A stretch of DNA of 64,000 nucleotides from Alphaproteobacteria bacterium (lineage in GTDB: Bacteria > Pseudomonadota > Alphaproteobacteria > UBA8366 > GCA-2717185). Position 1 is the first letter of the stretch. Each line of letters opens with the position of its first letter. A model generated the notes under the pieces. It had not been told where the DNA came from. It did not search any database and was given only the letters and a program-made list of their open reading frames with translations. The position numbers and the translations under genes are program-made. Positions 21,425 through 25,152 of the stretch are shown here, in pieces. The DNA is taken from positions 1 to 64,000 of the forward strand of contig JBBDQU010000058.1 of assembly GCA_040905865.1 (NCBI GenBank), written 5' to 3'.

Positions 21425-22720
21425 ATGATCTACAGCCAGACCATCGACAACTGCCTTGCCGACGCCATCGGGCCGGCCGGCCTCGCCGATTCCGAACTGG
21501 CCGCCATGCTGGCGCGGACGGATGGGGCGCTGGCGCAATTGCGCGACTGGAAGCGCGATGGCGGGCTGCCGCTGCTCGACCTGCCCGCCGCGCGTGACGA
21601 CCTCGCGGCGCTGGCGCCGGTGGCGGCGCGCTATCGCGAAAATTTCAGCGACGTGGTCATCCTCGGCACCGGCGGGTCCAGCCTCGGCGGGCGCAGCCTC
21701 TATGCGCTGGCCGACCGGGGTTTCGGACCGCCCGCCGGGTCGCCGCGCCTGCATTTCATGGACAATGTGGACCCGGACAGCTTTGCCGCAATGTTCGCGG
21801 CGCTGGACCCGGCGCGCACCGGCATCCTGTCCATCTCCAAATCCGGCGGCACCGCCGAGACCCTGTCCCAGACGATGCTCTGCATGGCCTGGCTGCGCCG
21901 GGCCGGGCGGCGGTTTGCGGACCATGTCACCATTATTTCCGAGGATGCGGACAATGCGCTACGCCGCCTCGCCGCGAAGCACGGGCTGCCGGCGCTGACC
22001 CATGACCCGGGGGTTGGCGGGCGTTACGCGGTGCTGTCGCTGGTCGGCATGCTGCCGGCGCTGATCATCGGGCAGGATGCGGCCGCGATCCGCGAAGGCG
22101 CGGCGGCCGTGCTGGACGCGACCCTGGCCGCCGCGCGGCCCTGCGACAGCGCGCCTGCGGTCGGGGCCGCGGTATCGGTCGCGCTGGCGGTGGAGCGCAA
22201 TGTCGCGGCGACGGTGCTGATGCCCTATTGCGACCGGCTGGTCTGTTTCGCGTCCTGGTTCCGCCAGCTCTGGGCGGAGAGCCTGGGCAAGGAGGGCAGG
22301 GGCACGGTGCCGATCGACGCCGCCGGCACGGTGGACCAGCACAGCCAGTTGCAGCTCTATCTCGGCGGGCCCAACGACAAGATGTTCACCATCATCCGCG
22401 GGCCGGGCGGCGGCGACGCGCTGGACGGCGCATTGGCGGATGACCCGTCGCTGGATTACCTGGCCGGGCGCAGCCTGGGCGACCTGCTGAACGCCTGCGA
22501 ACAGGGCACGGCGGACAGCCTCGCCGCCAAAGGGCGGCCGGTGCGGTTGATGGAGGTCGAGGCCGTCGATGAGCGGACGCTTGGCGCGCTGATGATGCAT
22601 TTCATGCTGGAGACGATCATCGCGGCCCATCTGCTGGGGGTGAACCCGTTCGACCAGCCGGAGGTGGAGGACGGCAAGCAGCGGGCGCGAGCCTACCTGG
22701 AGGCCATGGCACCGTCGTGA
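21425..22720 (+). CDS. pgi: Glucose-6-phosphate isomerase
   Basis: About 431 aa, the short form common in alphaproteobacteria. The sugar-phosphate-binding SIS folds carry VVILGTGGSSLGGRSL and ILSISKSGGTAETLSQ. FRQLWAESLGKEGRGTVP and QHSQLQLYLGGPNDK hold the catalytic Glu and His regions. It interconverts glucose-6-phosphate and fructose-6-phosphate. ATG 21416, three codons upstream, is an alternative start. Confidence 0.92.
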   Translation: MIYSQTIDNCLADAIGPAGLADSELAAMLARTDGALAQLRDWKRDGGLPLLDLPAARDDLAALAPVAARYRENFSDVVILGTGGSSLGGRSLYALADRGFGPPAGSPRLHFMDNVDPDSFAAMFAALDPARTGILSISKSGGTAETLSQTMLCMAWLRRAGRRFADHVTIISEDADNALRRLAAKHGLPALTHDPGVGGRYAVLSLVGMLPALIIGQDAAAIREGAAAVLDATLAAARPCDSAPAVGAAVSVALAVERNVAATVLMPYCDRLVCFASWFRQLWAESLGKEGRGTVPIDAAGTVDQHSQLQLYLGGPNDKMFTIIRGPGGGDALDGALADDPSLDYLAGRSLGDLLNACEQGTADSLAAKGRPVRLMEVEAVDERTLGALMMHFMLETIIAAHLLGVNPFDQPEVEDGKQRARAYLEAMAPS

Positions 22721-22721
22721 G

Positions 22722-22748
22722 GATCCGCCGCCGGCCGATTTGCGGATC
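22722..22748 (+). terminator. Possible hairpin after pgi
   Basis: GATCCGC (22722-22728) and GCGGATC (22742-22748) form a 7-bp stem immediately after the pgi stop. No T run follows, so it may only stabilise the transcript end. Confidence 0.3.
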
Positions 22749-22845: not shown

Positions 22846-22874
22846 TTGACTCTGGTTACCTTTAATTGTATCTC
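22846..22874 (+). promoter_or_regulatory. Predicted promoter of the antitoxin gene
   Basis: TTGACT (22846-22851) and TATCTC (22869-22874) are separated by 17 bases, a sigma70-like layout. The -10 box lies inside the palindrome at 22868-22885, so a repressor bound there would block RNA polymerase. Confidence 0.5.
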
Positions 22875-22885
22875 ATTTGAGATAC
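22868..22885. promoter_or_regulatory. Perfect palindromic operator of the RelB-type antitoxin
   Basis: GTATCTCA-TT-TGAGATAC is an inverted repeat with perfect 8-bp arms and a 2-base centre, about 30 bases upstream of the antitoxin ATG and overlapping the predicted -10 box. Ribbon-helix-helix antitoxins of the RelB/DinJ family autorepress by binding such palindromes. Confidence 0.65.
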
Positions 22886-22915
22886 ATAATGGAATATCGA
22901 GTCAGGAGTCCGGAA

Positions 22916-23221
22916 ATGGCCGCCCGCACGTCGATGCTGCATGTTCGTGTTGACGAGGACCTCAAGTCGCAGGCCTCGGAAAAGCTTGCCTCTGTTGGGC
23001 TTACGGTGTCCGATGCCGTGCGTATCCTGCTGACACGCGTTGCGAAGGAAGGCGGACTGCCGGCCGGCCTTACGGCCGATCCCGAGGCTTACGATGTCTG
23101 GTTTCGCGCAAAGGTGCATGAAGCGCTCGCCGATACCGGCCCTGCCGTGCCGCACCGACAGGTGATGGACGATGTCCAGGCGCGGATCGACAGGAAGCGC
23201 CGTGGCCGCGCTAAACGTTGA
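22916..23221 (+). CDS. RelB/DinJ-family antitoxin
   Basis: 101 aa. The N-terminal 50 residues ([18 protein letters not shown], then [19 protein letters not shown]) form a ribbon-helix-helix DNA-binding domain typical of RelB/DinJ antitoxins. The basic C-terminal tail would bind a toxin. ATG 22916 has AGGAG upstream. The expected RelE/ParE toxin gene overlaps its 3' end but survives only as a short remnant (23202-23282), so this is now an orphan antitoxin, perhaps still a repressor of its own promoter or an anti-addiction factor. Confidence 0.85.
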
Positions 23222-23282
23222 ATGGCGAGAAGCCGCACGTCAACGCCGGAAATGTTATCCTGCGCAACAATGGCCGCGTTAG
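23202..23282 (+). pseudogene. Gutted ParE/RelE-family toxin remnant
   Basis: A GTG at 23202, preceded by AGGA and overlapping the antitoxin end, opens a frame reading [14 protein letters not shown]... and closing with ...AQQWPR and TAG at 23280-23282, only 26 codons. The beginning resembles the N-terminus of ParE/RelE toxins (LxVEWxxAAR) and the final AQQWP resembles their C-terminus (recalled family pattern). The roughly 70 residues expected between are absent, so an internal deletion has destroyed the toxin. The VILR coded just before in another frame may be a further trace. Confidence 0.6.
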
Positions 23283-23343
23283 GGACTGCCGCCCGCCCTT
23301 CTGCCGCATTGCACCGCGGCGAATCGTCGGCAATGATGCCGCC

Positions 23344-25152
23344 ATGACCATCCGCCGCCTGCCCGAATCCCTCATCAACCGCATCGCCGCGGGCGAGGTC
23401 GTGGAGCGGCCGGCCTCCGCGGTGAAGGAACTGGTGGAGAACAGCATCGATGCCGGCGCGCGGCGCATCGATGTGGCCATCCGCGACGGCGGCAAGTCGC
23501 TGATTTCGGTCAGCGATGACGGTTCCGGCATGACCCCCGACGAATTGCAACTCGCCATCGAGCGGCACGCGACCTCGAAGCTGGCCGATGACGACCTGTT
23601 CGACATCCACACCATGGGGTTCCGGGGCGAGGCGCTGCCCTCGCTCGGCGCGGTCAGCCGGCTGTCCATCGTCAGCCGGCCCGAAGGCGCGGAATCCGCC
23701 TGGTCTATCGCGGTGGAGGGGGGCGCGGTATCCGCCCCGCAGCCCGCCGCCCATCCGCGCGGGACCCGGATCGATGTGCGCGACCTGTTCTATGCGACGC
23801 CGGCCCGGCTGAAATTCCTCAAGGGGGACCGGGCGGAAACGGCGCAGATCCTGGATACGGTGAAACGGCTGGCGATGGCGCGGCCGGATATCGCCTTCAC
23901 GGTGCGCGACGATGCGCGCGAACGGTTCCGCTGCGACGCCGCGAACGGCGACCTGCTGGACACGCGGCTGGCGCGGCTGGGGGCGGTGATGGGCCGGGAA
24001 TTCGCCGACAACGCGCTGCGGATCGACGCGGAGCGCGAGGGCATCCGCCTGACCGGCTATGCGGGCCTGCCGACGCTGAACCGCTCCAACGCGATGCAGC
24101 AGTTCCTGTTCGTGAACGGCCGTCCGGTGCGGGACAAGCTGCTGCATGGCGCGGTGCGCGGCGCCTATATGGATTTCCTCGCCAATAACCGGCACCCGAT
24201 GGTGGCGCTGTTCGTCGCGATCGAGCCGCGCTCGGTGGATGTGAATGTCCACCCGGCCAAGGCGGAGGTCCGGTTCCGCGACGCGGGGCTGGTGCGCGGG
24301 CTGATCGTCGGCGCGCTGAAGCATGCGCTGGCGGAAGCGGGGCATCGCGCCTCGACCACCGTCGCCGATGCGGCGCTGGGCGTGGTCCGGCCGGGAACGG
24401 GATCGCTGCCCTATGGCGGGGGCGGCGGCAGCTACGCCTACCGCCCGTCCACGCCGCCGCAGGGACTGGCCGCCAGCGCCGCGGCGTTCCAGTCGCCCTT
24501 CGGCGGCAATACGCTGGCGCAGCCTTCCGTGACGCCGCAAGCCGGCGGGGAAGACGCGGCGGCGCAGGGGGCGTATCCGCTGGGCGCGGCGCGGGCGCAG
24601 TTGCACGAAACCTATGTCGTCGCGCAGACCGCCGACGGTATCGTTATCGTCGACCAGCATGCGGCGCATGAACGGCTGGTCTATGAGCGGATGAAAAAGG
24701 CGCTGGGCGAATCCGGGGTGGCGCGGCAGTCGCTGCTGATCCCCGAAGTCGTCGAACTGGATGAATCCGCCGCGGCGCGGCTGGTGCAGCGGGCCGGGGA
24801 ATTGCAGGAACTGGGGCTGGTCGTCGAGGCCTTCGGCGAAGGGGCGGTACTGGTGCGCGAAGTGCCGGCGATGCTGGGACAGGTCGATTCGCGGGCGCTG
24901 GTGCGGGACCTGGCGGACGAACTGTCGGAATTCGGCGACGCCTTCAGCCTGAAGGAAAGGCTGGAGGATGTCTGCGGCACGATGGCCTGCCACGGATCGG
25001 TGCGCGCGGGGCGGCGGCTCAACGGCGATGAAATGAACGCGCTGCTGCGGGAAATGGAGGTCACGCCCCATTCCGGCCAGTGCAACCACGGCCGCCCGAC
25101 ATTCGTCGAACTCAAGCTCGCGGACATCGAAAGGCTGTTCGGCCGGCGCTAA
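23344..25152 (+). CDS. mutL: DNA mismatch repair protein MutL
   Basis: 602 aa. The GHKL ATPase domain begins [21 protein letters not shown] and has DDGSGM and GFRGEALPS. The C-terminal domain contains [12 protein letters not shown], matching the metal-dependent endonuclease motif DQHA(x)2E(x)4E, plus ACHGSVRAG and CNHGRPT. It is therefore the nicking type of MutL found in organisms without MutH. A low-complexity Gly/Ala/Pro linker separates the domains. Confidence 0.95.

Follow-up and report, generated by a model that had tools for sequence, protein, structure and literature searches.

The RelB/DinJ–RelE/ParE modules of Proteobacteria, such as those of Phenylobacterium (L012) and of Xanthomonas fragariae plasmids, carry the same operator as the locus described here, and the closest of them also have in common with it a 20-nt gene overlap and the start and end of the toxin. 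The PaaR2-PaaA2-ParE2 system of Escherichia coli O157:H7 is related through its ParE2, which matches the toxin family, and its PaaA2, which matches the carboxyl-terminal half of the antitoxin (PDB 5cw7/5czf/3zbe). PaaA2 has no DNA-binding domain and a separate regulator is used (PMC8630535); the target of ParE2 has, according to the same source, yet to be found and is probably topoisomerase-related (PMC8630535). It is established that chromosomal modules decay and that antitoxins can be orphaned, and the idea of anti-addiction is likewise an accepted one (PMC7192599; review PMC7167474, which cites a study of ccdO157 decay and a 2008 anti-addiction study). Orphan antitoxins numbered 2253 in Klebsiella genomes, and those of Klebsiella pneumoniae were read as possible degraded pairs or as anti-addiction genes (PMC7192599).

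The window analysed here is a stretch of 64,000 nucleotides from an alphaproteobacterium. It carries an antitoxin that, like the K. pneumoniae orphans, has no partner toxin, but whose toxin remnant is still recognisable and its lesion readable. The best explanation, with a probability of about 0.9, is that a type II module was acquired between pgi and mutL and that its toxin was destroyed by internal deletion, the antitoxin and its operator being left intact. What speaks against it is that the remnant is short, that on its own it is not significant in any profile search, and that the -35 box is weakened. The features of the locus are listed in Table 1.

Table 1. Features of the antitoxin locus and its borders (window coordinates).
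Feature	Position	Strand	Remarks
Imperfect direct repeat, 35 nt	left 22702-22736, right 23329-23363	+	74% identity; flanks the insert
Core promoter around operator	22862-22890	+	from alignment with relatives; function putative
Palindromic operator TGTATCTCATTTGAGATACA	22867-22886		18/18 match to family operator consensus
AGGAGT	22904-22909		ahead of antitoxin ATG 22916
Antitoxin ORF	22916-23221 (22916-23218 without stop)	+	ATG start; 101 aa
Toxin remnant frame	GTG 23202 - TAG 23282	+	26 codons
Remnant head	23202-23239	+	GTG and first ~13 codons; like LEWREAAR of intact ParE toxins
Remnant tail	23254-23282	+	GTTATCCTGCG then CAACAATGGCCGCG; ends AQQWPR-TAG; aligns to intact toxin ends

The antitoxin has a RelB domain over residues 5-54 (Pfam PF04221, 2.4e-13; 50.2 bits against a cut-off of 22.4) and a PaaA2 segment over residues 58-84 (PF21217, 2.9e-9; 37.2 bits against 27), and it scores above the cut-off of NCBIfam TIGR02384 RelB_DinJ (53.4 against 45.65). 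It is thus a RelB/DinJ antitoxin, with the amino-terminal ribbon-helix-helix above the curated cut-off and the conserved palindromic operator upstream, and at the same time a PaaA2-type one, with the toxin-binding segment. A profile built from 26 aligned antitoxins, of which the window protein is one row, matches DinJ in the PDB over positions 3-54 and PaaA2 over 55-98. The protein therefore combines a DinJ-like DNA-binding half with a PaaA2-like toxin-binding half, a fusion that distinguishes it from PaaA2 of the O157:H7 system. All 28 invariant columns of the same alignment are kept in the window protein, which thus bears no sign of decay, and from these conserved residues binding to the operator and to a toxin is predicted. 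Its identity to the paired members of RelB/DinJ–RelE/ParE modules in alignment A2 is mostly 70-84%. The intact RelB-type antitoxin noticed in the initial annotation is accordingly borne out by domain matches and invariant residues alike.

The operator, built as TGTATCTCA-TT-TGAGATACA, was likewise correctly recognised upstream of the antitoxin. Each of the 69 relatives checked keeps between 14 and 18 of its 18 consensus positions, and no second site like it is found in the whole 4.37-Mb genome when up to 3 mismatches are allowed. The promoter claimed for the gene stands in part. Alignment with relatives gives the apparent family promoter as TTGACT, 17 nt spanning the operator, and CATAAT; the window keeps the spacer length, the -10 CATAAT and the operator, but its -35 is TTAATT, a weakened form, and a consensus scan reported no sigma-70 site at the antitoxin promoter. 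Expression and autorepression of the antitoxin are predicted properties of the locus.

Phenylobacterium and the other closest relatives have an intact toxin of ~95 aa after the antitoxin, at the same 20-nt overlap. This toxin family belongs to PF05016 ParE_toxin (4e-20), and its best solved relatives are the ParE2 chains of 5cw7/5czf (8.6e-19); it also matches TIGR02385, where the name RelE_StbE is a family label. The window frame differs from these toxins in that it retains the first ~13 and the last ~6 codons of a ParE-type toxin, ~68 of ~95 codons between them being missing. The adjacent frame has no complete PF05016 domain, only a head and a tail, and the locus is not a functional type II pair with two intact genes. 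The frame opens with a GTG that overlaps the antitoxin end by 20 nt, exactly as in L007 and L012, and runs as initially described. The head VEWREAAR aligns to LEWREAAR of the family with a score of 40, reached by none of 3000 dinucleotide shuffles, and the tail aligns to RVLHAAQQWP with a score of 35, reached by 4 of 3000, both figures standing before order, frame and position are counted. The ParE-like start and the AQQWPR ending without a middle were thus confirmed by alignment with intact toxin ends, the check that had been proposed for them. That the 26 codons are a chance ORF at a locus that never had a toxin is hardly credible. The frame is short and, alone, has no significant match in Pfam or NCBIfam profile searches, but the shuffles already largely refute such an origin, and head and tail lie in the expected order, in the same frame and at the exact overlap of the family.

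The lesion can be read against the closest paired relatives, such as L012, whose toxins begin at the same place, 20 nt inside the antitoxin gene as counted from its end; they open with ...LEWREAARADLL... and close with ...VILRVLHAAQQWPP. DNA alignment with L012 and L013 places ATCCTGCG and CAACAATGGCC of the window at the toxin 3' end, separated by a gap of ~16 nt. A gap of this length shifts the frame, yet VEWREAAR and AQQWPR share one reading frame; the large deletion (~190 nt) preceding the gap must therefore restore it. This suggests two deletions, one large and a second of ~16 nt, a history drawn from an alignment of ~25 nt; a single deletion plus divergence is a possible alternative.

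The position of the locus points to acquisition. In the window 623 bp lie between pgi and mutL. In G003, of the same genus, the two genes overlap directly by GTGA without an insert, and in several other genomes of the same family they are adjacent, abutting or overlapping. The G003 junction without insert marks the module as an acquisition within the genus, and no close antitoxin homologue was found among the genus relatives searched. The repeat that flanks the insert corresponds to the junction of the pgi end and the mutL start, the latter appearing duplicated, and resembles an old duplication produced as the DNA was inserted. The initial annotation had proposed that relatives with no toxin before mutL would speak against decay. 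No toxin is indeed found there in the genus, but the whole module is absent with it, so that this criterion was badly framed. In G001, also of the same genus, the amino-terminal region of MutL is 97% identical in protein to that of the window, and ~60 bp before mutL are shared and the sequence further upstream differs; this arrangement suggests repeated insertion or rearrangement at the junction upstream of mutL. No antitoxin match was found in G001. Note that upstream of its mutL (L088 1-1377) a response regulator and another gene are found instead of pgi or an antitoxin. As RNA, the downstream leader shows no better folding than shuffled sequence (z 0.60), and there is no Rfam match.

Close homologues of the antitoxin are present on 551 plasmid records; 188 of these cover 80% or more of the query, and identity reaches 83% in some. 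The plasmids come from many Proteobacteria. A phage origin was considered and rejected, phage records giving one weak partial match. Intact antitoxin, recognisable toxin remnant and paired orthologues elsewhere are all present, as for an orphan antitoxin from a decayed pair, and the intact orthologous pairs in many species, together with the lack of the module at the G003 junction, uphold the early view of a locus caught in decay with its antitoxin preserved. We propose that a horizontally acquired module, coding a RelB/DinJ-PaaA2-type antitoxin and a ParE2-like toxin, settled between pgi and mutL, and that internal deletion then destroyed the toxin gene, probably in the form of a large deletion and one of ~16 nt, leaving the 26-codon remnant. 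In all likelihood the antitoxin gene and operator continue to give an autorepressing protein, which could neutralise cognate toxins although its own is gone. Its persistence is most simply explained by a recent toxin loss and by the harmlessness of an orphan.

The same order of decay is seen across the antitoxin family. Loci of the family (89, including redundant loci and some metagenome assemblies) were classified by profile, and three toxins run off their contig, leaving 86 that can be scored. Of these, 59 have an intact toxin; in the other 27 it is missing or damaged by truncation, frameshift or a stop. An intact antitoxin frame is seen in 88 of the 89 loci, a count that favours intact antitoxins since 72 of the loci (genome contigs) were found through the antitoxin. 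A search that started from the toxin, in class and phylum samples, found an adjacent antitoxin for all 14 close toxins. The asymmetry of losses is as addiction predicts, because the toxin must go first. Among the sampled loci (L007-L078, L117-L171), the third or so with a broken or missing toxin have varied lesions, comprising stops, frameshifts and truncations. The relative L076 (around 2501-2800) has a frameshift at the end of its antitoxin and has lost its toxin as well, a later stage of decay. The window locus is a genuine, well-preserved instance of a toxin lost while its antitoxin was retained, an ordinary stage in the decay of a pair and a readable example of its order, toxin first. A single locus leaves accepted views unchanged; the family, with about one third of its sampled loci toxin-less, can be used to test whether orphans are retained by selection or merely linger.

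Selection may have retained this orphan as an anti-addiction factor that neutralises cognate ParE toxins brought in by plasmids, but this is doubtful. The plasmid-borne homologues and the intact toxin-binding half speak for it, and so does a pairwise dN/dS of 0.089, taken against the nearest relative with a paired antitoxin. This value falls within the spread of the paired antitoxins (median 0.101), and pairwise dN/dS is a weak measure that integrates time before the toxin loss. Orphan antitoxins taken together are under slightly weaker constraint than paired ones (medians 0.141 against 0.101; p=0.035, uncorrected), and no plasmid is known for the host. Broken toxins have a dN/dS of 0.16 against 0.12 for intact ones (p=0.14); as this value is barely raised, most losses look recent relative to divergence, and pairwise dN/dS has therefore little power to separate drift from selection. 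It does not show that selection maintained the antitoxin once the toxin had gone. A role in guarding the cell against plasmids that enter it would be plausible and compatible with the plasmid-borne homologues.

Use of the module at its new site can also be considered. Its autoregulated promoter might now drive mutL, the antitoxin persisting within a control element: mutL abuts or overlaps pgi in genomes of the same family while 623 bp intervene here, and no terminator-like site lies between operator and mutL. Such a role is unlikely; mutL may continue to be served by readthrough from pgi, the -35 box has degenerated, and in G001 mutL has a similar leader of 58 bp and other sequence upstream. 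More generally, that orphan and promoter have been put to use, whether as a guard under selection against plasmid addiction or as a promoter-regulator unit of the downstream mismatch-repair gene mutL, appears rather improbable. The antitoxin could also have become a transcriptional regulator of other genes, its RelB/DinJ ribbon-helix-helix half and operator being intact, but this earlier suggestion of a repressor is very improbable and is not supported, the operator being the sole site of its kind in the genome at up to 3 mismatches. Decay of an acquired pair is the preferred reading.

Five other ParE-family toxins are found in the genome of the window. C63, the best match to the toxin family profile in the class search, with 35% identity to the toxin of L012, is overlapped by a short antitoxin-like ORF of its own, which bears only a weak similarity to the window antitoxin. 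The latter is thus unlikely to act as a cross-antidote for another toxin of the genome. A ParE-family toxin of the same genome (L111 1483-1951, minus strand) overlaps a 62-aa ORF that weakly resembles a PaaA2-type antitoxin.
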